From: a virus
Reading direction: 5' to 3' (one strand)
Virus record (IMG/VR): IMGVR_UViG_3300035698_002476
Span: 1 to 25,252 of that record
Length of the DNA stretch: 25,252 nucleotides
Made by a program: the position numbers and the translations under genes. Below are positions 151-16,149 of the stretch, in pieces. Positions within the stretch are counted from its first letter, which is position 1. Each line of letters opens with the position of its first letter. Under the pieces are notes generated by a model. That model searched no databases and was not told the origin of the DNA. It saw nothing but the letters and a program-made list of their open reading frames with translations.

Positions 151-429
151 ATGAGACACGACCATCCAAGACGCTCCATGCTCAAAGAATCCTCAACCGA
201 TCAACCCTCGCAATGCACGCCGCGCTATCACGATGATCAACTAGACTCGCTCATGTTCGCTCGTGACGCGCTGCTTGAGGCTTACTGCGGTAACGCCTCG
301 GACGAGGTCGCGCCTTGCCAGGACGTCGCCCCTGCGAAGCCTGACGCGCACCTCGATGGGTGCGCGACGTCGAGCCGGCGGACAGATCGGACATCGCGCC
401 CGCGCGCGAGGAGGTTGCGTCGTGGGTGA
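151..429 (+). CDS. Small hypothetical phage protein
   Basis: This is a reading frame of about 92 residues whose stop overlaps the start of the next gene by 8 bases, the same tight junction seen between most genes in the window. Codon choice (many G/C third positions) and a plausible central helix (LDSLMFARDALLEAY) support coding. The C-terminus is very rich in Arg and Ser. The ATG at 151 is preferred because it follows a G-poor, C/A/T-rich leader like those before several other genes here, although no clear ribosome binding site is seen. In-frame alternatives are ATG 82 and ATG 178. No family is recognised. Confidence 0.4.
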   Translation: MRHDHPRRSMLKESSTDQPSQCTPRYHDDQLDSLMFARDALLEAYCGNASDEVAPCQDVAPAKPDAHLDGCATSSRRTDRTSRPRARRLRRG

Positions 430-862
430 CAAATTTAAGATCGCAGACATCAAGTTCGCACTAACCAAATCTCGCGGTACGGTGTCGGTAGCTGCGAAGT
501 CTCTCGGCATGGCGCGCAGCGCTCTATACAAGCGGATCAACGCGAGCGCCGCGCTGCAAGAGCTGTTGACAGATCTTCGCGAGCTTGAGGTCGACATGGC
601 TGAGGCGACGCTTGCCCAGATCATGCGCGACACCGCCGATCGGAAAACCCAGCTCAAGGCAGTCATCTACACGCTGGAGACGCACGGGCAATCGCGAGGT
701 TTCGGTTTGCCCAAGACCCTCAACCTCGCCACACCTCAACCTCTCACGCATGGCGTGACGGCGCTCGACATTGACGCATTGCCTCTTGAGCAACAGATTG
801 CTTTGCGCCAAGCTTTGCGCCAAGCCGCTCCCCAGACACCTCAGACCGGAGATGACACCTGA
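422..862 (+). CDS. Helix-turn-helix protein, candidate small terminase subunit
   Basis: This 146-residue protein starts at a GTG preceded by a strong GAGGAGG ribosome binding site 7 bases upstream; a longer in-frame extension to 263 lacks such a site. Residues about 18-40 look like a Fis-type helix-turn-helix (VSVAAKSLGMARSALYKRI). It is followed by an acidic helix (LTDLRELEVDMAEATLAQI) and a motif ending ETHGQSRGF, which resembles the helix plus HGKxRGY-like segment of many phage small terminase or DNA-packaging proteins. Such subunits bind the pac or cos site and hand DNA to the large terminase. The large terminase lies about 4 kb downstream, separated by the DNA modification cassette. A transcription regulator is the main alternative. 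Confidence 0.55.
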   Translation: MGDKFKIADIKFALTKSRGTVSVAAKSLGMARSALYKRINASAALQELLTDLRELEVDMAEATLAQIMRDTADRKTQLKAVIYTLETHGQSRGFGLPKTLNLATPQPLTHGVTALDIDALPLEQQIALRQALRQAAPQTPQTGDDT

Positions 863-1446
863 TGCCACGCAAGAAGATCGCACCTCAAGACGCCGCACCT
901 CGCATCGTGTCGATGCCCCTGGCGAAGCTCACGACCCACCCATCTAACCCCAGGCGCGGCGACGTGGAGGCGATCCGCGCCTCGATCCGCGCCAATGGCT
1001 TTTATGGTGTCGTCGTCGCGCAGGCCTCGACTATGCACATCATCGCGGGCAATCACAGATTCCTCGCCGCACAAGCAGAATCCCTCGATTCGATTATGGT
1101 CCACCTCGTCGACGTCGACGACGTGCGCGCGCGCGCCATCATGGCAGCCGACAACCGGACGTCCGACCTCGGCGGCTATGATGACGAGCGCTTGCTGGCG
1201 CTGTTGGAGGAGCTGCGAGGTCATGACGCGCTGGAGGGGACCGGCTATGACGATCAGGATCTTGAGCTTCTGCTTGGCAAGCTCAATCATGAATGGAGTG
1301 ATGAGGAGCTTGAGGGCGCCGAGGTCCTGACACCAGACGACACGATGATCAGGATCGTCGCCTTTGTGGAGGGCGAGGGCGACAAGGAGGAGCTTCAACA
1401 GCGCATCGCCTCCGCGCTTGACGATCGCGTCGTGATCTTTAAATGA
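862..1446 (+). CDS. ParB-like N-terminal domain protein
   Basis: This 194-residue protein carries a ParB/Srx-type fold in residues about 14-105: an N-terminal strand with HPSNPR (26-31), a helix with ASIRANGFYGVVVA, the nucleotide-box-like IIAGNHRFLAA (60-70) and a later AADNRTSDLGGYD (95-107). The C-terminal part is acidic, and the helix-turn-helix DNA-binding domain of chromosomal ParB proteins is absent. Phage proteins of this type are variously seen as nucleases, methylase partners or regulators; which applies here cannot be decided. It overlaps the preceding gene (TGATG) and the following dpdA-like gene (ATGA), suggesting co-translation and possibly a role in packaging or in directing DNA modification. 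The link to modification is an inference from position only. Confidence 0.75.
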   Translation: MPRKKIAPQDAAPRIVSMPLAKLTTHPSNPRRGDVEAIRASIRANGFYGVVVAQASTMHIIAGNHRFLAAQAESLDSIMVHLVDVDDVRARAIMAADNRTSDLGGYDDERLLALLEELRGHDALEGTGYDDQDLELLLGKLNHEWSDEELEGAEVLTPDDTMIRIVAFVEGEGDKEELQQRIASALDDRVVIFK

Positions 1447-2309
1447 ACATCCTGTTGTCTTATCACTACTTTCAGGACCCAGCGCTGTTCGCGCAGCTCC
1501 ACGCGGCAGGCGTGCGTGTCCTTCTCGACTCCGGCGCTTACAGCGCGTTTACTCTCGGCAAGCCCATCAACCTGGAGGAGTATGCGCGCTTTGCTCGCGA
1601 GGTGCGCCCCTACATCGTGCGATGCTTTACCCTTGATGTGATCGGCGATCCCGCCCTCAGCGTCCAGCAGCAGGCTTACCTGAAGCGCTCAGGCATCAAC
1701 CCTATCCCGGTCTGGCATGATCAGCGCGGCGACATGTCGGGCCTTGATGCATTCCTGGAGGGCGAGGACTATGTTTCGCTCGGGGGCCTCGCGAGCGCCT
1801 TCGCAGGCAAGGCGAACTACCACCTCGGCAAGCACAAGCTCATGGCGCGCATCACGGGCTTTATCAAAGCTGTCAACAAGCGCGCGGGCATTCATCTGCT
1901 GGGTTATGGCAACATCAACAACATCCAAAAGCTCGGGGCGCACATCACCTCGGTCGACACCTCCACCGACAGTATGCAACGAAAATTCGGCATTGCAATG
2001 CACGTGCTCGACCCTGTGACATTGCAAGGCGTCATGTTGCCCTCCGGGCGCTCTGGGCTCAAGGAGCTGAGCAGGATCAATTTCCTGCGCACCTTTCGGC
2101 GCCTCGCCAAAGATGACAGCCTGGAGATCCCCGACCTATACAACCTCGAAAAGCAGGCCATCAATCACTATGGGGGATGCCTTATAGCCTATGGGGGATG
2201 GCTGCTGCGCTCGCGATTGCTCAAATGTCAATACTACACAGCGATTACTGGTAGATCGGATGTGGAGATGATCTTGAAGATTCACCAATTGCATACGAGG
2301 TCGACATGA
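1443..2309 (+). CDS. dpdA: DpdA-like DNA guanine transglycosylase
   Basis: This 288-residue protein resembles the TGT-fold DpdA family, which swaps guanine in DNA for a 7-deazaguanine base. Supporting motifs are LLDSGAYSAF (27-36, with D29 a candidate active-site Asp), CFTLDVIGDP (61-70, with D65), PIPVWHD (87-93), YVSLGGLA and the later SVDTST element, matching the strand-end catalytic and base-recognition loops of TGT-like barrels. The Cys-rich zinc site of tRNA TGT enzymes is not present. The start ATG overlaps the ParB-like stop, and the stop overlaps queC. Immediately following genes encode all four preQ0 synthesis enzymes, which is what makes the assignment strong. Near the C-terminus a 12-base direct repeat encodes a doubled YGG motif. 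The precise DpdA subtype and target motif cannot be read from the sequence. Confidence 0.88.
   Translation: MNILLSYHYFQDPALFAQLHAAGVRVLLDSGAYSAFTLGKPINLEEYARFAREVRPYIVRCFTLDVIGDPALSVQQQAYLKRSGINPIPVWHDQRGDMSGLDAFLEGEDYVSLGGLASAFAGKANYHLGKHKLMARITGFIKAVNKRAGIHLLGYGNINNIQKLGAHITSVDTSTDSMQRKFGIAMHVLDPVTLQGVMLPSGRSGLKELSRINFLRTFRRLAKDDSLEIPDLYNLEKQAINHYGGCLIAYGGWLLRSRLLKCQYYTAITGRSDVEMILKIHQLHTRST
2168..2200 (+). repeat. 21-bp-period direct repeat inside the dpdA-like gene
   Basis: CTATGGGGGATG occurs at 2168-2179 and again at 2189-2200, a period of 21 bases, so the frame is kept. The protein reads YGG-C-L followed by YGG-W-L seven residues later. It may be a recent small in-frame duplication near the C-terminus or a functional repeated motif. 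Confidence 0.7.
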
Positions 2310-3016
2310 AACACGAACCATTGAAGTCGCACAAGGCGCCATTGCTCGTCGTCGTCTCAGGCGGGCAAGACTCGCTGACGTGCCTCCACTGGGCGCGCAC
2401 GCAATCTGATGACGTGCGCGCCTTGAGCTTTGATTACGGTCAGCGCCATCGCGTTGAGCTGGACTGCGCAGCGCGTGCGTGCGCCAAGCTCGGCGTACCT
2501 CACGAGGTGATCAAGCTGCCCATCGCGCAGCTGGCGCCAAACAGCTCGCTGACGAGCAACGCCATCGAGGTCAGCAGCTCCACAGACGCGCGCGGCTTGC
2601 CGACGAGCTTTGTTCCAGGGCGCAATCTGGTCATGCTCACGGCAGCGGCGAGCTACGCCGCCGCGCGCGGCATCTATTGCATCATCACGGGAGTGTGCCA
2701 AACAGATGAGGCAGGTTATCCCGACTGCCGTGAGCAAACCATCGCGACGCTGTCCGACGCCATCGCGCTGGGCCTCGGCATGGAGCTTGACGACTTCACG
2801 ATCTCAACGCCGCTGATGTCCCTCACCAAGGCCCAAACGTTTCATCTGGCCGCCGAGCTTGGCGTTCTCGACCTCGTCATCGAGGACTCGCACACCTGCT
2901 ATAACGGCGACCGAACACTGCGGCATGGCTGGGGTTATGGTTGCGACGCGTGCGCTGCCTGCAAGCTCAGGGCTGAGGGCTGGCGCGCTTTCCTGAAGGA
3001 GCGGAAACGATGCTGA
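2306..3016 (+). CDS. queC: 7-cyano-7-deazaguanine (preQ0) synthase QueC
   Basis: QueC uses ATP and ammonia to turn 7-carboxy-7-deazaguanine into preQ0 in the cytoplasm. The 236-residue length matches ordinary QueC. The PP-loop SGGQDS is at residues 18-23, followed by the family's FDYGQRHRVEL segment, the VPGRN motif, TGVCQTDEAGYPDCR and the zinc-binding cysteines C198, C213, C216 and C219 (HTCYNG then GCDACAACKLR). It is not fused to a glutaminase-like domain, so it is not the Gat-QueC type that makes archaeosine-like bases. The ATG overlaps the dpdA-like stop, with GAGG 5 bases upstream, and its own stop overlaps queD by 7 bases. Confidence 0.97.
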   Translation: MKHEPLKSHKAPLLVVVSGGQDSLTCLHWARTQSDDVRALSFDYGQRHRVELDCAARACAKLGVPHEVIKLPIAQLAPNSSLTSNAIEVSSSTDARGLPTSFVPGRNLVMLTAAASYAAARGIYCIITGVCQTDEAGYPDCREQTIATLSDAIALGLGMELDDFTISTPLMSLTKAQTFHLAAELGVLDLVIEDSHTCYNGDRTLRHGWGYGCDACAACKLRAEGWRAFLKERKRC

Positions 3017-3441
3017 CCATCACGCTCACGCATCGCGTCGAAATGGCGCATCGCCTGTCGCACCCCGACGCGCCGATCAAGTGCCAGTCAATCCATGGTC
3101 ACTCATGGCGCGTCGACGTCACGCTAACCGCAAAAGAGCTTGATAGCTGCGATATGCTCATGGAGTTTGGCGTCTTCAAGCGCGCGTGGCGCGCGGTTCT
3201 CGATGCGCGTTATGATCATTGCCTGATCGTCGCGCGAGGCGATGTCGTCGCCGACGCGATTCGACGCGCGCATCCCGACGCGCGCATCACCGAGATCGAG
3301 GCGCAACCAACCACGGAATCCATCGCCCAAGACATCGCTGAACAGACCACCTACCTCCTCACGAGGTTGGGCGCTGTCGCCATTCTGGCGAGCGTTCACC
3401 TGCAAGAGACACCCTCCAACGCAGCGAGCTACCATGTATAA
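3010..3441 (+). CDS. queD: 6-carboxy-tetrahydropterin synthase QueD
   Basis: QueD converts dihydroneopterin triphosphate, made from GTP by FolE, into 6-carboxy-5,6,7,8-tetrahydropterin. This 143-residue protein shows the zinc ligands H14 (EMAHRL), H29 and H31 (IHGHSW), the nucleophilic cysteine C25 four residues before H29, the D69-H70 pair (ARYDHCL) and glutamates in TTESIAQ (E103) and LQETPSN (E133). These match the QueD/PTPS family, including the cysteine that separates QueD from mammalian PTPS. It overlaps queC upstream and queE downstream, so supply of pathway enzymes is probably translationally coupled. Confidence 0.95.
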   Translation: MLTITLTHRVEMAHRLSHPDAPIKCQSIHGHSWRVDVTLTAKELDSCDMLMEFGVFKRAWRAVLDARYDHCLIVARGDVVADAIRRAHPDARITEIEAQPTTESIAQDIAEQTTYLLTRLGAVAILASVHLQETPSNAASYHV

Positions 3442-4099
3442 GCAGCAGCCTAATCCAGACGTCGGCGAGATCGCACCACGGGGGCATTACAGCGTCTGTG
3501 AGACCTTCGTCAGCACCCAGGGCGAGGGCGTCCTCTCGGGCGTCGTGATGGTCTTTATCAGATTCGCTAAATGCAATCTGCGATGCTCGGTCGCTAATAC
3601 CGGCTTCGACTGCGACACGGACTTTCAAGTTGGTCGCATCATGACGGCGTCCGAGATCGTCAACGAGGCGCGCGCCCTGTCGCCGCGCGCGAGCTGGGTG
3701 TTGCTCACTGGCGGCGAGCCAGCACTCCAGGTTGATGAGGCGCTGATCGAGGGTCTGCGAGCCGAGGGCTTTAAGATCGCCATGGAGAGCAACGGCACCA
3801 CGCGCTTGCGCTATGAGGTCGATCACCTGACGATCTCGCCCAAGAGCGCGTGGCACACAATCCATCAACGCCAGTGTCATGAGCTGCGCATCGTGCGCAG
3901 CGCTCGACAGGCCCTCCCAAGCGGCGACGTGATACGCGACGACCTCCTCATCCAAGCCGACGCGCTCGTCCTCTCTCCGGGGTTCCTGGCGAGCGGCGCG
4001 CTTGATCCCGAGGCGTTGGCGTGGTGCGAGCAGCTCGTGATTGATCAACCCGAGTGGCGCCTGTCGATCCAGCAACACAAACTCCGGGGCGTGCGATGA
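3434..4099 (+). CDS. queE: 7-carboxy-7-deazaguanine synthase QueE (radical SAM)
   Basis: QueE is the radical SAM enzyme that contracts the pterin ring of the QueD product to give 7-carboxy-7-deazaguanine. The ATG at 3434, overlapping queD by 8 bases, gives 221 residues; a longer frame to 3242 would lie inside queD. Seen motifs are [10 protein letters not shown] (23-32), the cluster region [27 protein letters not shown] (92-99), ESNGT (118-122), SPKSAW and the C-terminal QQHKLRGVR. The iron-sulfur cysteines appear to be C47, C51 and C60, a CX3CX8C spacing instead of the standard CX3CX2C. Family variants with enlarged cluster loops exist, so activity is still expected. Confidence 0.93.
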
Positions 4100-4689
4100 G
4101 CCAAGATCCTGACGACGTCATCAAGCGGGGACTGGCAGCGCTCATCGCGCGCGTGGGCGACGACCCCGCGCGCGATGGCGTACTCAAGACCCCCGCGCGT
4201 GCGCTGGCAGCTTGGCGTGAGGTGTGCTCAGGGTACGCGCTGGACCCCGCGCAGATTCTGTCGACGAGCTTCGACCTATCTGACGTCGAGGGGACGTCAG
4301 GTTATGACGGTCTCATCCTGCTGCGCGAGATCGATTTCTGCAGCTCGTGCGAGCATCACATGCTGCCGTTTATCGGCAAGGCGCACGTTGGCTACATCCC
4401 TGGCGATGCAGGTCAGGTCGTTGGATTATCCAAGCTTGCGCGACTAGTCGACTGCTTCGCGCGCCGCCTGCAATGCCAAGAGCGCTTAACCGATCAGATC
4501 GCGCACGCGCTCGACATCCACCTCAAACCGCGCGGTGTGATCGTCGTCATCGAGGCTGAGCATTTCTGCATGCGCTTGCGCGGCGTGCGCAAGTCGACCT
4601 CGACCATGATCACAAGCTCACTGCGCGGCGTGCTGCGTGACGACCCCTCGGCGCGCGCCGAGGCCATCGCGCTGATCAAGGGCAGATGA
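4096..4689 (+). CDS. folE: GTP cyclohydrolase I (FolE)
   Basis: FolE opens GTP to dihydroneopterin triphosphate, the entry step of preQ0 synthesis. The ATG at 4096 overlaps the queE stop (ATGA) and gives 197 residues, close to the family norm. The diagnostic [10 protein letters not shown] is at 83-92 with zinc ligands C85 and H88, and the third ligand and catalytic His lie in [12 protein letters not shown] (H156, C158). GHP-type substrate features such as GYIPG and [12 protein letters not shown] are also present. A phage-borne FolE would raise flux to preQ0 independently of host folate regulation. The stop overlaps the terminase start, tying this pathway to the packaging genes. Confidence 0.97.
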
Positions 4690-6191
4690 TGTCGAAGCCG
4701 CTCCGTCTCAACCTGGAGGAGGAGTTGCTGAAGCTCGACCGTGCCATCGCGCGGTCGAGCTTCACCGAGTTCGTGAAGCTCGTCAGGCCTGAGTTTGGCG
4801 AGGCGACATGGTTCCATGCTTTCATCATGGACCGCCTGCAAGCCCTGTCGATGAGCGACGAGCTTGATAGGACGCGCCTGGGTATGGCCCTGCCTCCAGG
4901 TCACGCCAAAAGCGAGTATGCGCTGCTCTATTGTGCATGGTTGATAGGGTGCGATCCTGACATGCGCATCATGTATGTCACCTACCAAAGCGAGTTCGCA
5001 CAGAAGCAGCTTGAGCGCTTGAAAGAGATCGTCAAGCTGCGCGCTTATATCCGATTGTTTGGTCAGCGCATCAACGATCGCCGCGTCGTGTCTGATGTCA
5101 AAAGAGGCAAAGCAAACAACAAACGCGAGTTCGGCCTCATAGGCGGATCGGGTTCTGTTATGGCCTGTGGGTTTGACGGAGGCATCACAGGCGGTCGCGC
5201 CGACCTCGTCGTGATTGATGACCCGTTCAAGGGCCACGAGGACGCCAACTCAAAGACGCTCCGTGAGAAGCGCTGGCAGGCATATCAAAGCGAGGTCCTG
5301 AGCCGTTATCGCGTTGGGCGTCCTTTCCGTATTCTCATGCTTTTCACGCGTTGGCATTTGGATGATCTGACTGGTCGCTGTCGCGAGCTGGAGCCCGACC
5401 TGTGGACGTGGGTTGAGATCAGCGCACTGCGTGAGGGCGCCAACGAGGATGAGGAGTTGGAGGCTTGCGACCCGCGTGACGAGAGCGAAGCGCTGTGGCC
5501 TGAGGCGATCAGCGCTTCGTTGCTCGTGCGACGCCGTGAGGTGGCCCCTGAGGTGTTTGCTTGCATCTATCAGCAGAAGCCCGTCCCTGACGGCGGCGCG
5601 ATCTTCAAGAGCAGCTGGTGGCGCACCTGGGAGGTCTTGCCCGATTTGGTTGGCGCGACGTGGGTGCAGTCTTGGGATATGCGCGGCGGCGGCAAGGTCG
5701 ACAGGGGCTCGTTTGCAGTCGGGCAGCTTTGGGTTCGACCGCTCAACAGCGCGAACAGTTATCTGGTCGATCAGGTGCGCGGCCGCTGGTCGCCCTCCGA
5801 GACGCACGTGGCGTTTCTGGAGGTGCAGCGGCGCAAGCCCTGGAGCTTCGCGCGCACCGTGCTCGTGGAGGCGAAAGCAGACGGCGTCGGTGTGATCGGC
5901 TTGCGAGGTAATGAGGTGCCTGGCATCACGCCGATCATGCCGCGCTATGACAAGGTCACGCGCGCTCGCAATGTGACGCCCATCGTGGCGGCGGGCAATG
6001 CTTACATCCCGGCTCGTGCTGAATGGCGTGCGACGTGGGACTATGAGCATATGACGTTCCCTGCAAGCGCCAACGACGACCAGGTCGACGCGTCAACGCA
6101 GGCGCTTGACTACCTCTATCAAGCGCAAGAGATCGAGCAGTCTGAAGAAGAAATTGCTGCCGCCTCGTGGGCGGCCATGATGGGAGCATGA
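4686..6191 (+). CDS. terL: Terminase large subunit
   Basis: This is the ATPase-nuclease motor that cuts concatemers and pumps DNA into proheads. The 501-residue protein has a Walker A-like LPPGHAKSE (about 69-77), Walker B LVVIDDP (174-180) and motif III FTRWH (220-224). The C-terminal RNase H-like nuclease shows acidic residues in SWDMRG (D331), LVEAKADG (E395) and ANDDQVDA (D464, D465, D468). Two adjacent ATGs (4686 and 4689) overlap the folE stop; either may be used. The family is the phage TIGR01630-like terminase group, in line with a headful or cos packaging myophage; the packaging type cannot be told here. Confidence 0.96.
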
Positions 6192-6192
6192 C

Positions 6193-7968
6193 ATGACCCG
6201 CATCACAGATCGGATCAAACAGGCAGTCTTACCAACCCTCGCAACCATGCTCTCGCGCACCGACAGCGCCGACAACCTGCCTCCTGCGGTGCACGCCATG
6301 CATGCGCAGCACGTCGAGCAACCACGCAAAGGAGGCCTTGAGAACGTCATCTCGGGCCTCGGTACGGCGCGCGCGCGCTCGGCAGGAACGCGCCTGATCT
6401 CACGTGAGCAGCTGAGCGAGCTTCAGCTTGATGATCTGCTACAACATAAGATCCCGTATCGCATCGCTGCGCGCCTCCCTGGCTCATCCCTGACGGACAT
6501 CAAGATCGCAGGCCTCGAAGATCCTGAGGCGCTGTTGAACGCGCTAGACGAGCTTGGCTGGGTCGCTGCTTTCAGGAAGGCAGCTACCTTCGCGCGCCAC
6601 TATGGCGGCGCCGCTGTTTGGATGGTGTGCGACGGAGGCGGCGAGGTAAACGAACCTCTTGACTATGCGACCTTGCAATCAGTGAACCGCCTCATCGTGA
6701 TGAATCGCTTTGAGCTTCACAGAACGCCGAACGCTCAAGGCGAGCAGATTGACAGTGATCCTTATAGCGATAGCTACATGACGCCCGAGCTTTACAGGTA
6801 TCAACCTGCAACCGGCGTTGTGCTTGAACAGCCAATCATCCACGCGTCGCGACTGATTCGCTTCTATGGGGACCCGGTTCCGCCTAAGCTTCTGGCCACC
6901 TATCAATATTGGGGCGCTCCAGTAATGGAGGGTATCCTTGAGGGATGGGAGCGTGAGGAAATGGCAGCTCAGGGCGGCGCCGAAGTCTTGCATGAGATCG
7001 GCGGCAAGACGCTCGCGTTGGGCAACCTCAGCGACCTGCTCACCAACGACCAGGGCCGCTCGACGCTGATCAGCTACATGGCGCTTCAGCAGCGCGCGTT
7101 TAGCATGTTGCGGATGTGGATCGTCGGTCCTGGGCAGGTCGTGACGCCGCACAACACGACGCTCTCAGGTTGGAGCGACGTCTATGATCGACAGGCGCAG
7201 AAGCTCGCCGCACTGGCAGACATGCCCGTCGTCGAGCTTTGGGGTCAGGCCCCAGGTGGCCTTTCGACTGACGACGCCAGCGGGCGAAAGCAGTGGGCGG
7301 CGCGCTGTCGCGACTATCAGCGACTCGCGCTGACGCCCGCGTTGAATCAACTCATCAAGGTTCTGGTTTGCTCCGCGCTCGGGCCGACAGACGGCGACGA
7401 ACCCGAGCGCTGGGTTGCCGAATGGTCGCACTATGAGGTCGAGTCGCAGGGCGAGAAAGCGACCACGATCAAGACGCACGCGGAGGCGCTGTCGATCGCT
7501 GTGACCATGGCAGCGATGACGCCCGACGAGGCGCGCGGCCACCTGCGTCAAATAGGCTTGTCGATCCCCGACGACGTCGACGACGATGCATCGTCGTCGA
7601 CGATGAGGGTCCCGGCCTCGCTGCTTGACGCGCTCAGGGCGCCCACGGCACCCGCACAGGTCGAAGAGCCCGAGGTCGCGCCGCAGGGTGCGCCCGAGGA
7701 CGCGCAGGGCGTTGAGGTCGAGCCTGAGCTTGATGAGCCGACGCCGCCCTCCGAGACGGCGATGAATGGCGCGCAAGTTGCGTCAATGCTTGAGATCATC
7801 ACGATGGTCAACAGCGGCTTGCTCACCTACGATCAGGGCGTCGGCGCGTTGGGTCTGGCGTTCCAACTTGACGCCTCGAAGTCGAGCGCGATCCTCGGAC
7901 CGCAGGGAGGGGGCCCGCCTCCGGCAGCAGCTCCCGCATCAACTGCTCCCGTGGGGTCGATGCCATGA
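6193..7968 (+). CDS. Portal protein (DUF1073-like)
   Basis: The dodecameric portal forms the DNA gate at one capsid vertex. This 591-residue protein lies one base after terL and has typical DUF1073 portal features: the early LQLDDLLQHKIPYRIAAR segment, AATFARHYGGAAVWM, VIMNRFEL, IHASRLIRFYGD and the central GGKTLALGNLSDLL followed by WGQAPGGLSTDDASGRKQW (about 353-371), close to the fold's crown-and-stem core. From about 475 it becomes low-complexity and rich in Asp, Glu, Pro and Ala, an extension likely to be flexible. The gene overlaps the next one by 4 bases. Confidence 0.9.
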   Translation: MTRITDRIKQAVLPTLATMLSRTDSADNLPPAVHAMHAQHVEQPRKGGLENVISGLGTARARSAGTRLISREQLSELQLDDLLQHKIPYRIAARLPGSSLTDIKIAGLEDPEALLNALDELGWVAAFRKAATFARHYGGAAVWMVCDGGGEVNEPLDYATLQSVNRLIVMNRFELHRTPNAQGEQIDSDPYSDSYMTPELYRYQPATGVVLEQPIIHASRLIRFYGDPVPPKLLATYQYWGAPVMEGILEGWEREEMAAQGGAEVLHEIGGKTLALGNLSDLLTNDQGRSTLISYMALQQRAFSMLRMWIVGPGQVVTPHNTTLSGWSDVYDRQAQKLAALADMPVVELWGQAPGGLSTDDASGRKQWAARCRDYQRLALTPALNQLIKVLVCSALGPTDGDEPERWVAEWSHYEVESQGEKATTIKTHAEALSIAVTMAAMTPDEARGHLRQIGLSIPDDVDDDASSSTMRVPASLLDALRAPTAPAQVEEPEVAPQGAPEDAQGVEVEPELDEPTPPSETAMNGAQVASMLEIITMVNSGLLTYDQGVGALGLAFQLDASKSSAILGPQGGGPPPAAAPASTAPVGSMP

Positions 7969-8741: not shown

Positions 8742-10154
8742 ATGGCGTACAGGATCGACAGCATCGGTAAGCTCATGCAGCCGTTAGAGACGCCAGAGGG
8801 CTTTCTGATGGCTGATGCGTTTGTGACCCGTCCAGGCGTGTTTGAATACAAGCTCGCAGATGGCACGGTGCGACGCGAGCTGCGCACGCGCGAGGAGGTG
8901 TTCGCGCCAAGCTCGCTGTCGACCTTCGCGCGCAAGCCTACCTGCTTAGGGCATCCGGTAGATGCAAAGGGCGACGCCATTCGCATCACGCCGGAGAATG
9001 CGCGCACCTATGCGACGGGCGCGAGTAGTGAGAAGATCAACGTCGACGCTGAAGCGGATATGGTTCGCATGACGCTGACCTTCTTCGACGGCGACCATAT
9101 CCAGGCCATCCGCGACGGTGTTCATGAGCAGTCGCTTGGCTATGACTGCGACATCGTCGAGGAGCCAGGGACAGATCCCGAGTTCGGCGCCTATGATGCA
9201 ATTCAGAGGAACATCGTAGGCAATCATGTTGCGACCGTCGAGCGCGGTCGGGCTGGGCGAAATGTTCGCCTTCGCGCAGATTCCGCTTATCAGGTCGTCA
9301 ATGATGACGACCCCTCACCACACGAGCTGACCATGAAGATCAAGATTCGGCGCAAGAAGACGACCCAACAGCGCGCCGACGCGCGCAAGAACACGCTCTC
9401 CAAGCCAGCGCCGCCGAAGTCCTCCAAGCGCACGCCGACTAAGCGTCGCGACAGCGATGAGATGACCGACGACGAGGTCGCGGATATGGAGGAGGAGGAG
9501 GTTGAAATGCCCATGGAGGAGGCGATTCCGAAACTCATTGAGGCAGTGCTTGAGAGCATTGACGGCTTGAACGCACGCTTTGACGCCCTGGAGGGTCGCC
9601 TTGATGCGATGATCCCGAACGCTGACGAGGACGACGAGCCTGTCGATGATGAGGACGACGAGCTTGTCGACGACGAGGATGACGACGCCACAGGCGACGA
9701 GGACGACATGACTGGCGACGCTGATTATACGGAGCCGCCTGCGCGCGCGGATCGCCGTGACAGCGCACGTGGGCGCCGTCGTCGCAGCTCACGCCAAGAC
9801 GCCGAGGCGGCACAACACAACTACATGGTGGCGCGTCGCAAGCTCGACGACCTGGCCAACGCGCTGCCGTCGCGCAAGCGCGTTGAGGGCGCTGACGACA
9901 TGACCAACACCGAGCTCGCGCGCGCTGTCGTCAAAGCGCACCTCGGCGATCGGATGCGCAATGACTCCGAGGCCTATGTCATGGCGATCGTCGACGAGCT
10001 TTCGAGCGCGCGCAAGCTGTCTAGGTCGTCTCACAAGGCGACCGGACGCTCGCACGTTAAGGCGACCGCGTCCGCCAGTTCGCAGCGCACAGACAGCGAG
10101 AGGGACGCGCGTCAGCGCTTCGCAGATCGCATGCATGGTAAGACCAAGACCTGA
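8742..10154 (+). CDS. Prohead protease (DUF2213-like) fused to scaffold-like region
   Basis: Residues 1-185 match the DUF2213 prohead protease type: FLMADAFVTRPGVFEY, CLGHPVDA (a conserved His), VHEQSLGYDCDIVEE and NHVATVERGRAGRNVRLRAD. These proteases trim scaffold and capsid proteins. Residues from about 200 are highly charged: a Lys/Arg-rich stretch, an acidic helix (EEEEVEMPMEEAIPKLIEAVLESIDGLNARFDALEGRL) and an Asp-rich repeated tract, then a basic helical C-terminus. That layout is typical of an internal scaffold, so a protease-scaffold fusion is inferred; no separate scaffold gene is seen. The start has AGGGA 8-9 bases upstream. Total length is 470 residues. Confidence 0.8.
   Translation: MAYRIDSIGKLMQPLETPEGFLMADAFVTRPGVFEYKLADGTVRRELRTREEVFAPSSLSTFARKPTCLGHPVDAKGDAIRITPENARTYATGASSEKINVDAEADMVRMTLTFFDGDHIQAIRDGVHEQSLGYDCDIVEEPGTDPEFGAYDAIQRNIVGNHVATVERGRAGRNVRLRADSAYQVVNDDDPSPHELTMKIKIRRKKTTQQRADARKNTLSKPAPPKSSKRTPTKRRDSDEMTDDEVADMEEEEVEMPMEEAIPKLIEAVLESIDGLNARFDALEGRLDAMIPNADEDDEPVDDEDDELVDDEDDDATGDEDDMTGDADYTEPPARADRRDSARGRRRRSSRQDAEAAQHNYMVARRKLDDLANALPSRKRVEGADDMTNTELARAVVKAHLGDRMRNDSEAYVMAIVDELSSARKLSRSSHKATGRSHVKATASASSQRTDSERDARQRFADRMHGKTKT
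9627..9719 (+). repeat. 24-bp tandem repeats encoding an acidic tract
   Basis: Units begin at 9627, 9651, 9675 and 9699 (the last is 21 bases) and encode EDDEPVDD, EDDELVDD, EDDDATGD and EDDMTGD. The first two units are almost identical at the DNA level and the later ones have diverged, so length variation by slippage is likely. The tract sits in the scaffold-like part of the protease fusion. Confidence 0.85.
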
Positions 10155-10186
10155 AGCCCTCCACCCTCCTTCGCACAAGACCACGC

Positions 10187-10207
10187 GCGCGCGCACCTGT
10201 CGCGCGC
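10187..10207 (+). other. GC-rich hairpin before the decoration protein gene
   Basis: GCGCGCG (10187-10193) pairs with CGCGCGC (10201-10207) around a 7-base loop. No T-tract follows, so it is not a classical intrinsic terminator. It sits in the 70-base gap behind the protease gene, after a C-rich leader CCACCCTC-CTT-CGCACA, and is one of several hairpins in late-operon gaps. Confidence 0.45.
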
Positions 10208-10224
10208 TCACTTCGAGGTTCATC

Positions 10225-11310
10225 ATGCCATTCACCAACTACACGGCTCGTCTTGCGCCCGGGCGCGCTGGCGATCCTTTTGACATCGCCATCGCCAAAG
10301 ACGACATCAGTCTGATAGCCGCATTCCCGCAAGCTCGTCAGGTCAGCACGATCGCCATCACGGCGGCGAACGCCACGACCTACACGATCACCGTCGAGGG
10401 TGTCGCGGTGTCATTCCTCAGCGACGCCAACGCGACGCAGACTGAGATCGCCGCAGGCCTGCGCGCGGCGCTCATGAATGACCCAGCCATCAGCGGCTTG
10501 ATCAGCGTGGTCGCTGCGACCAACCTCGTGCTGACGTCGCGTCAAGCTGGGCTTGCGTATACGATCGCCGTCGGCGCGAACCTCGCCCTGACGGCGACCA
10601 CGCCGAACGCCGCGGCGGCTGCGGTTCCTTTCGGTGCAGCCATCGCGTTCGACCCTGCTGACACGGCAGGCGATTCTCTTGTCGACGACCGCGAGCAGGG
10701 CGGCGCGCTGCTGTCGAGCTTGCTTGCAGGCTCGGCTCCTGCCGTGCAGACGTTCACTGTTACCGCCGAGAATGCTGCGCTGTATCGCATCACGCTGAAC
10801 GTCGACGGAACGCCCTATGTCGTGAGCGTCATCAGCAGCGGAGCCGCCACAACCACAACCGTGGCCACGCAGCTGCGCACGGCCATCAACACCACGCTCG
10901 ACATCCCTGGCGTCACGGCGACCGGCACCACGACCCTGATCGTCACAGGCGATCCAGGCGTGAGCTTGCAGGCGGCGAGCTTTACCAACAACCTCGCCCT
11001 CGCGGAGAATGCAGGCGCCAGCGTCTCCACGCTCCAGCTGTTCGCCGGCATCTCCCTGCGCCAGGACACCGAGGAGTCGGGTGGTTTGGTTGATGGATAC
11101 AGCCCCCATCGCACGATGAGCGTGCGACGCCTCGGGCGCGTGCGCGTGCGCATCGAGGACACGCCGACCAAGGGCGCGCCGGTGTTCGTGCGCGTCGACA
11201 CCGGCAGCGGCACGATCTTCAGGTCGACGCCTGCTGATGGTTGCGTCCGGCTTGCAGGCTGGCAGTTCTATAAAGTCGAGGAAGGCGGGCTGGCCATCAT
11301 CCAGGCCTGA
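10225..11310 (+). CDS. Capsid decoration / head fibre-like protein with two internal repeats
   Basis: The gene lies between the protease-scaffold and the major capsid gene, where myophages usually encode a head decoration or cement protein. ATG 10225 has CGAGG 7-9 bases upstream; an in-frame extension to 9961 would run through the protease gene. Residues about 40-127 and 174-262 are two related copies of a Thr/Ala/Val-rich beta domain (AITAANATTYTITVEGVAV versus TVTAENAALYRITLNVDG, each followed by an A-T-E/V-A-x-LR-A helix and an L-V-L-T strand). The C-terminal part (265-361) contains VRIEDTPTKGAPVFVRVDTGSG, resembling structural cement proteins. The two-repeat domain also appears in the tail sheath. 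Confidence 0.7.
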   Translation: MPFTNYTARLAPGRAGDPFDIAIAKDDISLIAAFPQARQVSTIAITAANATTYTITVEGVAVSFLSDANATQTEIAAGLRAALMNDPAISGLISVVAATNLVLTSRQAGLAYTIAVGANLALTATTPNAAAAAVPFGAAIAFDPADTAGDSLVDDREQGGALLSSLLAGSAPAVQTFTVTAENAALYRITLNVDGTPYVVSVISSGAATTTTVATQLRTAINTTLDIPGVTATGTTTLIVTGDPGVSLQAASFTNNLALAENAGASVSTLQLFAGISLRQDTEESGGLVDGYSPHRTMSVRRLGRVRVRIEDTPTKGAPVFVRVDTGSGTIFRSTPADGCVRLAGWQFYKVEEGGLAIIQA

Positions 11311-11314
11311 CAAA

Positions 11315-11347
11315 GAGGCGCGCAGCTCATCACGAGCTGCGCGCCTC
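11315..11347 (+). terminator. 14-bp perfect hairpin behind the decoration gene (no T-tract)
   Basis: GAGGCGCGCAGCTC (11315-11328) pairs perfectly with GAGCTGCGCGCCTC (11334-11347) around the loop ATCAC. It begins 4 bases after the decoration protein stop. Since no run of T follows, it may be a partial terminator, an RNA stability or processing element, or an insulator between decoration and capsid messages. A smaller stem, GTCGCC/GGCGAC with loop TGA, follows at 11362-11376. Confidence 0.5.
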
Positions 11348-11361
11348 ATGATGCAAATCAA

Positions 11362-11376
11362 GTCGCCTGAGGCGAC
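11362..11376 (+). other. Short hairpin in the major capsid leader
   Basis: GTCGCC (11362-11367) and GGCGAC (11371-11376) form a 6-bp stem with a 3-base loop, ending 6 bases before the AAGGTGA ribosome binding site of the major capsid gene. It could keep the site open or protect the 5' end of a processed capsid message; this is inference. Confidence 0.4.
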
Positions 11377-11396
11377 ATCAACAAGGTGAAATTGTT

Positions 11397-12293
11397 ATGG
11401 CGGATGCCCTCACGCTCTACGTCAAGCGACAGCTGACGGATCAGAAGCAGCGGATTTATGATCAGCCTCTCCCCCCACTCAACGGCCTGAAGATCATGCC
11501 GCCGCGCGGCGAGGTCGCACGCGGTGCGAACATCTACACGCGTCGCGTCCTGCGCAACTTCGGGCGCGCGCAATGGATCAGCAACTCGGGCGATGACCTG
11601 CCCCTCGTGGGCGTCGGCGTCATCGAGGACGAGTACAACGTCGGCTTCTTCGGTGTGGCCTATCAATACGGCTACCAGGAGCTTGAGAACGCGATGTTCG
11701 CAGGCGAGAACATCAACGACCGCAAGGCGACGGCAGCGGCGCGCTCCATCCTCGAGTTCGCAAACGATGTCTCTTTCTATGGCAGCGCTGCGAAAAAGGT
11801 GACCGGTCTGCTGTCGATGCCATATGTCTCGCGGATTGCATATGACGGCACGATCTTCCAGCTTGGCGGGGATTCTGATGTGCAGCTCGCGGTCTTCACC
11901 GACCTGCTGCGCAAGGTGGAGGAGCAGACAAACGAGGCCGAGGTCGCATCGACGCTCTTGGTCGCATCCAGCATCTTCAATTTCATCGAGGACACGAGGG
12001 CCAACACCTTCACCAATGAGACGATTCTGGACATCCTTCTCAAGAAGGAATCTGTCACTGCCGTCATCAAGGTTCGCGAGCTCAACGCTGCCGGTCCAAA
12101 CGGCGAGGATATGATCTGCGCGGTGTCCACGGAGCCCGATCGTCTGGAGCACAACCTGCCGGACCCCATGACGATCCTTGATACGCAGCCGCGCAACCTC
12201 CTTTGGGTCACTCCCATTGTCGGCTCGACAGCAGGGGTGATCACGGAATTTCCGCTGGCGCACGCCTTCGCTGAAGTCTCACGACCCGCCTGA
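11397..12293 (+). CDS. Major capsid protein (DUF2184-like)
   Basis: This 298-residue protein is placed after the protease and decoration genes as expected for the major shell protein. It has the look of DUF2184-type capsid proteins: an N-terminal segment with PLNGLKIMPPRGEVARGANIYTRR, a WISNSGDDLPLVGV segment, FGVAYQYGYQELENAMFAG, FYGSAAKKVTGLLSMP (the loop common to HK97-fold shells of this group) and a C-terminal beta-rich domain. A good AAGGTGA ribosome binding site is 7 bases before the ATG. The gene is flanked on both sides by perfect 14-bp hairpins, in line with tuned, high expression. Confidence 0.88.
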   Translation: MADALTLYVKRQLTDQKQRIYDQPLPPLNGLKIMPPRGEVARGANIYTRRVLRNFGRAQWISNSGDDLPLVGVGVIEDEYNVGFFGVAYQYGYQELENAMFAGENINDRKATAAARSILEFANDVSFYGSAAKKVTGLLSMPYVSRIAYDGTIFQLGGDSDVQLAVFTDLLRKVEEQTNEAEVASTLLVASSIFNFIEDTRANTFTNETILDILLKKESVTAVIKVRELNAAGPNGEDMICAVSTEPDRLEHNLPDPMTILDTQPRNLLWVTPIVGSTAGVITEFPLAHAFAEVSRPA

Positions 12294-12322
12294 AGCTAAA
12301 GCAAACCGACCCACCCTCGCAC

Positions 12323-12357
12323 AGGTCGCGCGCGTCAACGCATGACGCGCGCGACCT
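12323..12357 (+). other. 14-bp perfect hairpin behind the major capsid gene
   Basis: AGGTCGCGCGCGTC (12323-12336) pairs with GACGCGCGCGACCT (12344-12357) around a 7-base loop AACGCAT. The gap also holds CCACCCTCGCACA just before the stem, close to the leader of the 10187 hairpin. No T-tract is present. A weak, partial terminator that lowers downstream expression relative to capsid is one reading, message end protection another. Confidence 0.5.
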
Positions 12358-12371
12358 CACCGGAGCTACCC

Positions 12372-12821
12372 ATGAGCGCAGCAAAGAAAGCTACGAACAC
12401 CCTCGACGTCTATAGCGTCATGCCGCACAGCTGGTCGGTCGCGATCCCTGTTAAGCACGGCACCAAAGGTCAAGCTGACTACCATGTCAGCTTTCGTGAG
12501 GTCCGCTTTGATCCAGGCGACAATCAGATCGCCGCCGAGGATTGGGATGAGATCAACAAGCTGCCCGCTGTCAAACATCACCTTGAGCAAGGCAATCTTG
12601 CTCAAGGTCGAATCATTAAAGCGAGCAGCCACATCCGCGAAATGATCTGGGATGGTAGAGTCGATGCGAACGGCATTCCGCAGCTTGCATCAGCTGATAA
12701 GACTTGGATCAAGCGCTTGTCGCCTAAGGCTATGTCAGTGACGGACACCCTCGCCAAGCGCGTCAGCGATCGAGGTGTTATCGTGCTGACTGATGACGAG
12801 CTAAAGAACCTCGGGAAGTGA
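12372..12821 (+). CDS. Hypothetical head/neck protein
   Basis: This 149-residue protein lies between the major capsid and the adaptor genes, a position often taken by a small head or neck protein. ATG 12372 follows CACCGGAG by 7 bases; an in-frame ATG at 12342 sits inside the hairpin and has no such site. The protein is basic at the C-terminus and contains SVAIPVKHGTKGQADYHVSF and an acidic-aromatic AAEDWDEINKLP element. I do not recognise a family. Codon use is slightly more AT-rich than neighbours. Confidence 0.75.
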   Translation: MSAAKKATNTLDVYSVMPHSWSVAIPVKHGTKGQADYHVSFREVRFDPGDNQIAAEDWDEINKLPAVKHHLEQGNLAQGRIIKASSHIREMIWDGRVDANGIPQLASADKTWIKRLSPKAMSVTDTLAKRVSDRGVIVLTDDELKNLGK

Positions 12822-12825
12822 TCTC

Positions 12826-13227
12826 ATGGGTAGCATCGCAGACTTTCGCACACGCTATGCAGAGTTTGATGACGTCGCTGACGCGCGCCTCAGCGTCTAT
12901 ATTAGTGACGCCTCCAGCGAATGCAGCACGCGCGCTTGGGGCGTTTACTGGTTGCGTGGTGTGCTCTCGCTTGCTGCGCACCTGCTCGCCTTGTCGCAGC
13001 TCCAAGGTGAAGCGATGGCATCACAGGGCGCGATCGGTCTCATTGGTCTTGGGGCAGGTGGCGCCGCATCCATGACGACGGGGCGCGAGTCGATCAGTTA
13101 TGCAGGCCCGCGCCTCGCGTCGCGCACAGACCTGAGTCCTGGCGACGCGCTGCTAACTGCGACCGCCTACGGTCAAGAACATCTGCGCCTCAAACAACGG
13201 CTCTTCCTCGGCCCCGTGGTGATATGA
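12826..13227 (+). CDS. Head-tail adaptor (DUF4054-like)
   Basis: The 133-residue protein matches the DUF4054 type of head-tail connector: an N-terminal FRTRYAEFDDVADARL, a helix with AWGVYWLRGVLSLAAHLLALS, a Gly/Ala-rich loop, then SISYAGPRLASRTDLSPGDALLTATAYGQEHLRL. Such adaptors form a ring under the portal. The gene overlaps the next at ATATGATGG (two candidate ATGs). Confidence 0.8.
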   Translation: MGSIADFRTRYAEFDDVADARLSVYISDASSECSTRAWGVYWLRGVLSLAAHLLALSQLQGEAMASQGAIGLIGLGAGGAASMTTGRESISYAGPRLASRTDLSPGDALLTATAYGQEHLRLKQRLFLGPVVI

Positions 13228-13787
13228 TGGCCAGCAAGCCCAAGATCAAAACCATTGACCAGGGCTGGGTTGCGCGCCTGCGCAACATCAGCCAGATGGC
13301 ATCGTCTCACGTGGAGGTCGGGCTACCGGCGCGCGTTGGCGCGCAGCTCGTGTCGCCGCCGCCCGAGGATTCAGGTGCATCCGGACCTGAAGCGCCTGAA
13401 GGGATGGGCGGCAGACCTGCGCCTGCGGTTCTGCCATCGCTCGCTGACCTGGGTGCATTCCATGAATTCGGGACGGTCAAGATGCCAGCGCGTCCCTGGC
13501 TCACGCTAGGCGTCGCAGCTGCTGAACCTAGAGAGCTTATGAGAACCGCGACACTCGATGTTATGAATGGAAAGCGAACAGCAGAACAGGCGCTGGAGCG
13601 TGTTGGTCTTGGCGCGCAATCAGCGATCCAGAAGACGATAACCAAGGGCATTGAACCGCCCTTGGCGGCGAGCACCATCAAAGCCAAGGGCAGCAAGAAG
13701 CAGCTCATCGACACCGGGCGCCTGCGCGCGGCGATCACCTATGACGTCATCTTGGGCAACCTGCCCAAAGGTCAAAAAAAGGGCTGA
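13224..13787 (+). CDS. Tail completion / virion morphogenesis protein
   Basis: This 187-residue protein contains AFHEFGTVKMPARPWL in the middle and PPLAASTIKAKGSKKQLIDTGRLRAAITYDV at the C-terminus. That combination is characteristic of HK97 gp10-like and Mu G-like virion morphogenesis proteins that complete or join the head and tail. The N-terminal half has a Pro/Gly-rich loop (SPPPEDSGASGPEAPEG). It overlaps the adaptor gene upstream and is followed 3 bases later by the next neck gene. Exact role (stopper or tail completion) is inferred. Confidence 0.75.
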   Translation: MMASKPKIKTIDQGWVARLRNISQMASSHVEVGLPARVGAQLVSPPPEDSGASGPEAPEGMGGRPAPAVLPSLADLGAFHEFGTVKMPARPWLTLGVAAAEPRELMRTATLDVMNGKRTAEQALERVGLGAQSAIQKTITKGIEPPLAASTIKAKGSKKQLIDTGRLRAAITYDVILGNLPKGQKKG

Positions 13788-13790
13788 GCC

Positions 13791-14147
13791 ATGCCTATCG
13801 GACGCCGCCCCCTCGCCGTCTTGAGGCGCGACGCCGTCGTCTATGGAGACGACGGCTTGCCTATTCGAGGGACGCTTGAGCCGCTCATGGTGCGCGCAAG
13901 TGTGCAGCCAATGGACAGCTTTCGGTTGCTTCGCGTGGAGGAGGGCCTGCGCAGCGAGAGGTGGGTCGCCATCATCAGCGACGGTCCGCTTTACACCGCC
14001 GACGCCAGCATCGGGCGCGAGCCCGATATTCTGCTCCACGAAGGCGAACGCTGGCAGGTGCATATGGTTGACGCGTGGCCGACCGGTTTGATCAAGCACC
14101 ACACGGCGTATGCTTATGCGCAGCAGACGCCGCCGGGGGCACCATGA
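13791..14147 (+). CDS. Neck protein, probable head-closure / stopper-type
   Basis: The 118-residue protein lies in the neck cluster, between the morphogenesis protein and the tail terminator. It has a beta-rich pattern (RRDAVVYGDDGLPI, ASVQPM, LHEGERWQVHMVDAW) that resembles head-closure or stopper proteins, with the conserved Asp/Gly turn common in these small barrels. The stop overlaps the next gene by 4 bases (ATGA). The family is not certain. Confidence 0.6.
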   Translation: MPIGRRPLAVLRRDAVVYGDDGLPIRGTLEPLMVRASVQPMDSFRLLRVEEGLRSERWVAIISDGPLYTADASIGREPDILLHEGERWQVHMVDAWPTGLIKHHTAYAYAQQTPPGAP

Positions 14148-14674
14148 GTTATGGGCCCGACGCGACGGAGGTCGCGATGCGCGCGTGGGTCGTGGGTTGC
14201 ATCGGCGCGAGCGTGCTCGCGCCGAACCGCATCATCTACGAACAGCAAGACGGTCCTCGCCCTGCGGCGCCGTTTGCAAGTTTGCTCGCATTGGATGATC
14301 CCGAGGTCGGACGCGCCAGTGTGCAGCTGCTCGACATCGCCGCAGGCGTCGACGAGGATGGCGACCCGCTGTTTCAGGAAGCGGCCGAGCAGGATCGCAT
14401 CCTGACGATGCGCGTGACGAGCTACGGCGCGACCGCGCGCAGCATCATCGCTCGCCTCGCGAACCGCTGGCAGCTCGACAGCGAGTCGGAGCGCGCGCGC
14501 GCGTTGGGCCTCGCCATCGTCGCGGTCGGCGCGCCGAGGCGCCAGGCGCAGATCCTGTCGCAGACGACAGAGGATCGTTGGATCGTTGAGCTGCGCGTGC
14601 ATCACATCACGCGCGAAACCGCATCAACCGCTGCCGTCGAAACCGCGACGGGCAGCTATCAAGAGGTGCCCTAA
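14144..14674 (+). CDS. Tail terminator-like / neck protein (LIC_12616-like)
   Basis: The ATG at 14144 overlaps the preceding stop and gives 176 residues. The NRIIYEQQDGPRPAAPFASLLALD segment near residues 28-50 is typical of the phage neck terminator group: a helix, then a strand containing N-Q-x-x-P-x-P. The remainder alternates strands and helices (RILTMRVTSYGATARSIIARLANRW, DRWIVELRVHHITRE), as in tail terminators that cap the tail tube and sheath. It is directly followed by the sheath gene with a 1-base overlap. Confidence 0.75.
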   Translation: MSYGPDATEVAMRAWVVGCIGASVLAPNRIIYEQQDGPRPAAPFASLLALDDPEVGRASVQLLDIAAGVDEDGDPLFQEAAEQDRILTMRVTSYGATARSIIARLANRWQLDSESERARALGLAIVAVGAPRRQAQILSQTTEDRWIVELRVHHITRETASTAAVETATGSYQEVP

Positions 14675-16080
14675 TGGCGAATCAGAATGACGTCATCGAA
14701 ACCACGATCCTGATTGGCGGGACGCCTGTCGGGCGCGCTGGGTTCGGGACGGCGATCGTAGTCGACGACGCGAGCATGACCGAGCGGATTAGATTCTATA
14801 CAACGCCGGGAGCGGTCACAGCAGACCGCCTCGCAGGCGCCATCACGCAAGCGCAAGCTGAGCACCTGACGATCGCATTGACGCAAGCGCGCAAGCCTGC
14901 GCGCGTCGCAGCTGCGCGCGCAGACTTCACATTGACGGCGCAGGTGACAACTGTGACGGTCGGAGGCACGCCAGCAGCTGGCGCCTACACGATCATCATC
15001 AATGGCACGCCGTTTACATTCAGCGCGACCACTGAGACAAACGACGCGATCGCGACCGAGCTGCGCGCGCTCATCAATGCGGGCACGCAACCTGTCACCG
15101 CGTCGGGCGCGACAGCCGCTGTCGTCGTGACGAGCGATTTTGCAGGCACGCCGTTCAGCGCGACGACGAGCACTCCTGTGGGGGCGACGCTGGTTGTCGT
15201 CGTGACGACGGCTAGCGGGAACACTCTCAACGCCGAGCTTGATGCGATCCTGGGCGAGTCTGCGCAGTGGTACGGTCTGCATATGATCGCGCGTGACGCG
15301 GCGTCAATCCTGGCAGCTGCGGCGTGGGCTGAGACGAACGCGAAACTTCACATCGCGCAATCTAGTGACGCCTCGATCATCGCTGCAGGAGCTGGCGACG
15401 TGGCGAGCATCTTGAGCGCTCAGAGTCGTGCATATAGCAAGGTGTACTATTCCGCTGTGGACGCAGCTCCTGTCGCCTTTGGCGCGCTCACGCAGCAGCT
15501 CACAAGCGACCCCGACATCGAACCCGTGCCACCTATCGGGTTGATCCAGATCAGCGGCGTGACGGCGCAGGACAGCGTCATCAGCGAGACGCAGCGAACC
15601 ATCTCTCGCACCAAGAGGGTCGGGTTGTATCTGACGCTGAAGGGCGTGGCGGCGACCGACAGCTCACCGGGCGCGACGCAGATGGCAGACGGTCGGTTTG
15701 TCGACGCGCGCATCGTGGTCGACTGGCTGCGCGAGCGCACCAATGAGAACGTCGCCTCGTTTCTGTTGACGCAGCGCGCGCTCGGGCGGCGCGTCCCCTA
15801 TACCGATAAGGGTTTTCAGCAGATCGGCGCGATCGTGGAGGCGCTGCTAGAACTCGGTATCACTAATGGAAACCTCGAATCTGCGATCGATCCGCTGACG
15901 GATGATGTGATCAGCCCTCGCGTGTTCCTGCCGCTGCGCGCGACGCTGCCTCAAGCCGAGGTCGAGCAGCGGCGAATCACCTTCCAGTTTCAGGCGCTGC
16001 TTGCTGGCGCGGTCGCGCTGGCGCGCCTGCGCGGCGTGCTAACAGACGACCTCGATTTGCTGGCGCAGCTGGCGCCCTGA
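14674..16080 (+). CDS. Contractile tail sheath protein (DUF3383-like)
   Basis: The 468-residue protein follows the DUF3383 type of myophage sheath. N- and C-terminal sheath parts are clear: FYTTPGAVTADRLAG and, near the end, DARIVVDWLRERTNENVASFLLTQ..VPYTDKGFQQI, FLPLRATLPQAEVEQRRITFQFQALLAGAVALARL. A domain of about 90 residues at 88-178 (VTVGGTPAAGAYTIIINGTPF followed by ATELRALINAG and strands) looks inserted and is related to the repeats in the decoration protein. The presence of this gene is the main evidence for a contractile tail. Confidence 0.9.
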   Translation: MANQNDVIETTILIGGTPVGRAGFGTAIVVDDASMTERIRFYTTPGAVTADRLAGAITQAQAEHLTIALTQARKPARVAAARADFTLTAQVTTVTVGGTPAAGAYTIIINGTPFTFSATTETNDAIATELRALINAGTQPVTASGATAAVVVTSDFAGTPFSATTSTPVGATLVVVVTTASGNTLNAELDAILGESAQWYGLHMIARDAASILAAAAWAETNAKLHIAQSSDASIIAAGAGDVASILSAQSRAYSKVYYSAVDAAPVAFGALTQQLTSDPDIEPVPPIGLIQISGVTAQDSVISETQRTISRTKRVGLYLTLKGVAATDSSPGATQMADGRFVDARIVVDWLRERTNENVASFLLTQRALGRRVPYTDKGFQQIGAIVEALLELGITNGNLESAIDPLTDDVISPRVFLPLRATLPQAEVEQRRITFQFQALLAGAVALARLRGVLTDDLDLLAQLAP

Positions 16081-16121
16081 CCTCACGCGCGCGTCGCGCG
16101 CATCGTGTGCTAACACCAAGA

Positions 16122-16149
16122 GCGCGCGCCCTCAAGCTGGGGCGCGCGC
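16122..16149 (+). other. GC hairpin between sheath and tube genes
   Basis: GCGCGCGCCC (16122-16131) pairs with GGGCGCGCGC (16140-16149) around an 8-base loop in the 88-base gap behind the sheath stop. It precedes the ribosome binding site GAGAGGAAG of the tube gene by about 10 bases. As with the other late-operon hairpins, no T-tract follows. Confidence 0.45.

Follow-up and report, generated by a model that had tools for sequence, protein, structure and literature searches.

The viral record IMGVR_UViG_3300035698_002476 (IMG/VR; 25,252 bases, linear and without end repeats), the whole of which is referred to here as the window, carries on its plus strand at 862-4689 a run of six genes, ParB-like, DpdA, QueC, QueD, QueE and FolE, with the gene for the large terminase directly after. 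With a probability of about 0.86, this run is a cassette for the synthesis of 7-cyano-7-deazaguanine (preQ0) and its insertion into DNA, of the mycobacteriophage kind, in which the ParB-like protein serves as a partner of the DNA guanine transglycosylase DpdA. Such cassettes have been described before, with this order of genes, and the window provides a divergent further example; the less ordinary parts are the constant ParB-like partner gene and a QueE with an unusual cluster motif.

QueC, QueD, QueE and FolE supply the four steps from GTP to preQ0 in the established pathway and, to judge from their families, the four phage enzymes would carry out this conversion. DpdA, a base-exchange enzyme with the fold of tRNA-guanine transglycosylase (TGT), would swap guanine for preQ0 in double-stranded phage DNA. 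This would leave dPreQ0 at a subset of guanines, and the modified DNA would be expected to withstand host restriction enzymes, a protection demonstrated for such DNA modification in other phages (PMC6884629). The ParB-like protein, made just ahead of DpdA, most likely binds DNA in a nucleotide-dependent way and recruits DpdA to its sites, a role that has been proposed for bacterial DpdB. Finally, the position before the terminase would place the cassette in a late operon, such that DNA would be modified after replication, around the time of packaging; such a position would be convenient rather than required.

DpdA and its ParB-like neighbour

The product of 1443-2309 (288 residues) matches phrog_887 (1.5e-20) and phrog_7068 (1e-11), both of which are phage "queuine tRNA-ribosyltransferase" families; it has no match in Pfam, the TGT family included, and its score against NCBIfam NF041059 is far under the cut-off. 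Four residues, D29 (of a DSGA motif), D65, H151 and D172, are invariant across 66 aligned phage DpdA relatives, and a profile built from that alignment has a single match in the PDB, the DNA-guanine transglycosylase 7ui4 (1.5e-6), with which H151 and D172 align. Likewise, the AlphaFold model of the protein (predicted local distance difference test score 84) has a TGT-type barrel fold, finds 7ui4 as its top Foldseek match (3e-5) and superposes on 7nq4 with 233 residues aligned (VIA-align Z 16.5, root-mean-square deviation 3.4). Both profiles and predicted fold place the protein within the DpdA/TGT superfamily, bearing out a preliminary description of the window, made from its letters alone, that had named it a DpdA-like transglycosylase. 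A conserved histidine is present in DpdA and missing from DpdA2 (PMC6884629), and H151, which probably corresponds to residue 196 of 9g DpdA, speaks for DpdA rather than DpdA2. The position of the window protein on the DpdA tree is unsure, since the branches are long.

The preceding gene (862-1446) matches phrog_723 (2e-40) and, under the cut-off, PF02195 (1e-4). A profile search with its product reaches Noc/Spo0J structures (3e-15), and the predicted fold is that of a ParB/Noc N-domain (Foldseek 6sdk, 1e-5). The linkage of such genes to DpdA was surveyed in 91 loci (80 from IMG/VR, ten named phages and the window), where a ParB-like gene adjoins DpdA in 27, lying upstream in 16 (Nicole72 counted by hand) and downstream in 11; the genes of several of these pairs overlap. 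The well-supported Queuovirinae-type clade (38 rows), in which the order is QueE-QueC-QueD-FolE-DpdA-polymerase, contains no case of ParB adjoining DpdA. On the DpdA tree, the ParB label requires six changes, against far more in shuffles (about 25 for the three-state label). A second scan was centred on ParB-type DpdA and comprised 40 loci, some of them contigs repeated from the first sample; here, ParB adjoins DpdA in 35. A small ParB-like protein almost always accompanies DpdA of the window type, whatever the gene order. Among the loci gathered before the second scan, no open reading frame fusing ParB to DpdA was found.

The ParB-like gene may instead encode a partition or packaging protein whose closeness to DpdA reflects no more than a shared place at the left end of a late operon. 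This account is possible but somewhat unlikely; in its favour, ParB-like genes are common in phages and, in many relatives, the two genes are found where packaging is encoded. The preliminary description had similarly made ParB one half of a packaging pair, and this was not borne out: ParB travels with DpdA across loci, also away from the terminase, as in Sonali and Finch, and in the 11 downstream cases it stands behind rather than before DpdA. In contigs L186 (5798-9823) and L187 (1949-5974), there are two DpdA genes, with a separate ParB-like gene directly behind each and QueC in the middle, and in L188 (7382-8837) and L189 (7363-8516, ending inside DpdA), a ParB-DpdA pair occurs with no preQ0 gene in the available DNA. 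Since the ParB-DpdA pair is found in three gene orders, in loci lacking the terminase or the preQ0 genes, and in two copies, ParB probably belongs to the DNA modification module. DpdB is itself a ParB-like ATPase acting with DpdA (PMC12839542), and ParB domains are found near or fused to other DNA-modifying enzymes, where their role is unknown (PMC12783734). The linkage to ParB makes the choice of targets by phage DpdA open to a direct test.

The preQ0 enzymes and the QueE cluster loop

All four preQ0 enzymes are encoded in frames that are open and without stops. QueC, the preQ0 synthase (2306-3016; PF06508 1e-66; TIGR00364 7e-64, over the cut-off) retains SGGQDS, YGQRH, VPGRN, YPDC and four zinc-site cysteines, in keeping with the motifs of the family (SGGxDS, YxQxHxxE, VPxRN, YPDC and a four-Cys zinc site; PMC13329287). 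Its zinc site reads C-x14-CxxCxxC, six residues more than the usual C-x8-CxxCxxC, and the longer form is also seen in phages M39 and Ssp-JY38 (L006 and L007). QueD, a 6-carboxytetrahydropterin synthase (3010-3441; PF01242 9e-23; phrog_2389 8e-30; TIGR03367 1e-20, under the cut-off) keeps its metal ligands (H/C/HGH), as does FolE, a type IA GTP cyclohydrolase I (4096-4689, with a refined ATG start at 4096; PF01227 5e-65; TIGR00063 8e-59), with its zinc ligands C..EHH..HFC. Matches of all four enzymes to Pfam, NCBIfam and PHROG profiles, together with the alignment of catalytic and metal ligands in QueC, QueD and FolE, support what the preliminary description had claimed for this cassette, namely completeness and readable active sites. 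Its suggestion that the phage is independent of host preQ0 is a fair inference, because all four steps are phage-encoded.

QueE, a 7-carboxy-7-deazaguanine synthase (3434-4099, with a refined ATG start at 3434; phrog_2076 1e-25), is less regular. Its radical S-adenosylmethionine (radical-SAM) cluster motif, Cys47-x3-Cys51-x8-Cys60 (3572-3613), fits neither the canonical CX3CX2C nor the known CX14CX2C that has been given for QueE (PMC4389238). The best curated family is TIGR04508, the CX14CX2C QueE (1e-34, under the cut-off), and the best solved relative is the Burkholderia multivorans enzyme 4njg (5e-20), which has the CX14CX2C motif; relative to 4njg, the second cysteine of the window protein is in the standard position, and it is the stretch from there to the third that holds the extra loop. 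A full-text literature search returned no paper with the term CX3CX8C. By overall match and context, the window protein most probably works as a QueE, and its motif places it in a separate subclass.

This subclass is not confined to the window. A degenerate DNA pattern found 16 viral contigs with the motif, 15 of which encode a QueE by hidden Markov model, mostly adjoining QueD, QueC or FolE, and the same pattern found CX3CX8C QueE in bacterial records labelled Deltaproteobacteria/Myxococcota, Bradymonadales and Phycisphaerae. Since such a pattern preselects the motif, the survey was repeated by similarity alone in 46 genomes of the QueE-bearing phylum: the best nine QueE matches were all CX3CX8C, and the weaker ones comprised seven CX14CX2C proteins, the remainder being other or truncated. 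In six genomes tested, the CX3CX8C type was the only QueE found, and each genome has a tRNA TGT, for which reason the CX3CX8C QueE is very likely a working enzyme. A tree obtained by a quick method places the window QueE inside a 21-row group that is entirely CX3CX8C and includes bacterial sequences (Shimodaira-Hasegawa-like approximate likelihood ratio support 92). The QueE of L096 and L102 carry the motif and lie elsewhere on the tree, outside this group; hence, the motif arose, or was retained, at least twice. Loci with this QueE, which form mainly one clade of phage and bacterial sequences, are the window itself, L093-L107, L114, L116, L118, L121, L123, L125, L135 and L142-L147. Further variants of the loop occur in L156 and L157, which have CX3CX6C (CNLRCSWGDLLC and CNLLCKSDDWIC), and in L072, which has a longer form (CNLRCEWRCQAGELHRC), and these variants suggest that the cluster loop is evolutionarily loose. 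With a cluster loop intermediate between CX3CX2C, the standard form, and CX14CX2C, the known variant, the subclass should be useful for enzymologists as a natural variant.

The affinity of the window QueE weakly suggests a Myxococcota-like host. The window's portal was sought in the same 46 genomes and none was found, which is no evidence against a myxococcotal host.

A bolder, twofold proposal seems to us evenly balanced. The ParB-like protein would be a phage cofactor dedicated to DpdA and would select the sites of guanine replacement, corresponding in phages to DpdB and to those ParB domains that are fused to DNA methyltransferases. The CX3CX8C QueE would be a distinct, undescribed radical-SAM way of holding the iron-sulfur cluster, shared with phages and, in some Myxococcota-type and Phycisphaerae genomes, found as the sole QueE.

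End product, packaging and tRNA

Other DpdA phages carry dADG, dPreQ1 or dG+ (PMC6884629), and the window, as a 25-kb linear record without end repeats, would leave room for an enzyme, in the unsequenced part or supplied by the host, that converts the product into a DNA 7-deazaguanine other than dPreQ0. We regard this as unlikely: among the proteins scanned, no QueF, ArcS, Gat-QueC or DpdC lies in or beside the cassette, and the annotated genomes of Sonali, CRB2 and Finch list no such enzyme beside theirs.

The preliminary description had also proposed that modification is synchronised with packaging by translational coupling. The run is indeed an overlapping one ahead of the large terminase, with overlaps of 1, 4, 4, 7, 8, 4 and 4 nt at the seven junctions from the small-terminase candidate onwards, and several unrelated phages also have the terminase after the cassette. 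That coupling to packaging is the purpose of this placement is nevertheless quite improbable and was not supported: compact phage operons commonly show overlaps such as these of 1-8 nt, Sonali and Finch carry the intact ParB-DpdA-QueC-QueD-QueE-FolE run apart from the terminase, and Queuovirinae-type cassettes adjoin DNA polymerase instead. In light of the varied settings in which ParB-DpdA recurs (three gene orders, no terminase, doubled, no preQ0 genes), the coupling is regarded as incidental. Finally, a role of the preQ0 genes in host tRNA queuosine, with the DpdA-like protein acting on tRNA, is hardly credible even though DpdA is TGT-like and a tRNA role has been suggested for phages with preQ0 genes but no DpdA (PMC6884629), given the lack of a Pfam TGT match, a DpdA profile that finds 7ui4 and no tRNA TGT in the PDB, and the loss of DNA modification (dPreQ0 at ~32% of G) on deletion of dpdA in CAjan (PMC6884629).

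Several points nonetheless weigh against a cassette that inserts preQ0 into DNA with ParB as the partner of DpdA. The window DpdA has a long branch (3.17 on the DpdA tree) and is at most 34% identical to its relatives, and the cluster motif of QueE is non-standard. In the first sample, the majority of DpdA loci lack ParB, which is therefore not required by DpdA generally; the role given to it here is drawn from gene linkage, and the window protein had no DpdB match in PADLOC or NCBIfam, the presence of a DpdB model in these two libraries being unchecked. The predicted dPreQ0 end product is likewise read from gene content rather than chemistry, and as the record covers the packaging, head and tail part only, a later-acting QueF-like, ArcS or DpdC-like gene could lie in the missing part.

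Genomic setting and known relatives

Upstream of the cassette lies a Fis-type helix-turn-helix protein (422-862, plus strand), with a likely GTG start at 422 preceded by a gaggagg ribosome-binding box; on a longer open reading frame (263-862), it matches HTH_8 (PF02954, E 1e-4). Family scans gave no terminase-family match for this protein, which is accordingly a small-terminase candidate only. The large terminase (4686-6191, plus strand; phrog_38 1e-88) is a neighbour of the cassette that stands outside the modification system, and family scans place portal and Mu-F-like head protein genes after it. Further downstream, capsid, tape-measure-like, baseplate-hub, spike-like and Baseplate_J genes occur in turn, so that the tail is probably contractile. 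The head and contractile-tail module (8742-23729) comprises DUF2213, Major_capside, KPP10_Orf10, E217 hub gp41, a PF18352 spike-type N-terminal domain, Baseplate_J and DUF2612, and shows distant relatives only. A recent acquisition of the cassette is not supported, since its GC content, overall and at third codon positions, equals that of the remaining window. No nucleotide match to the window was found among 50,697 phage records (megablast), and viral contigs scanned with a single protein, either DpdA or the large terminase of the window, yielded no relatives, such that alignment queries were needed; contig L019, which equals the window in length by coincidence, has none of the window's sampled 20-mers. 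By these sequence comparisons, the phage appears to be very divergent.

The ParB-DpdA-QueC-QueD-QueE-FolE run is also present in Mycobacterium phage CRB2, Rhodococcus phage Finch and Arthrobacter phage Sonali, and the window gene order recurs in IMG/VR contigs L073, L091 and L101. Bipper has the run without QueC, and Microbacterium phage Nicole72 has it together with a second DpdA-like gene; CRB2, Bipper and Nicole72 have the terminase after the cassette, and Sonali and Finch do not. In L101, where QueC was not found, a membrane protein that by eye resembles VUT/YhhQ preQ0 transporters (7381-7902) is encoded between DpdA and QueD. The window ParB is closest to that of Sonali (46% over 112 residues), QueC to those of phages Ssp-JY38 and M39 and contig L030 (47-53%), and QueE to that of a Myxococcota-labelled genome (50%). 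As the order and the ParB are of actinophage type while QueC and QueE have other affinities, it appears that homologues were exchanged while the gene order stayed the same.

Rosebush is a member of subcluster B2. It has DpdA with FolE, QueD, QueE and QueC, no amidotransferase, and dPreQ0 at ~28% of G (PMC6884629). The CRB2 genes have been described, and its ParB was proposed as a possible DpdB homologue (PMC6392294). Relative to CRB2 and subcluster B2, the window has the same genes, order and overlaps, with ParB first and the terminase behind (PMC6392294). Its proteins, however, are just ~25% (DpdA) to ~40% (ParB) identical to those of CRB2, its QueE and QueC belong to other subclasses, it has no separate small terminase between FolE and the large terminase, and it has a contractile-tail baseplate module.

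FolE, QueD, QueE, QueC and DpdA are shared with the preQ0/G+ cassettes of 9g and CAjan (Queuovirinae/Seuratvirus), for which modification is proven (PMC6884629), whereas Queuovirinae-type records have a QueE-QueC-QueD-FolE-DpdA-clamp-polymerase order, no ParB, and a DpdA of another clade. Compared with the bacterial Dpd system (DpdA, DpdB, DpdC), the window lacks neighbouring restriction genes and DpdC, and scans of its small ParB against PADLOC and NCBIfam gave no DpdB match, within the limit on these libraries noted above; the parallels are a TGT-fold DNA transglycosylase (7ui4) and the ParB-like ATPase DpdB (PMC12839542). Taken as a whole, the window cassette would show that an anti-restriction strategy already known from other phages also occurs in one that is very divergent.

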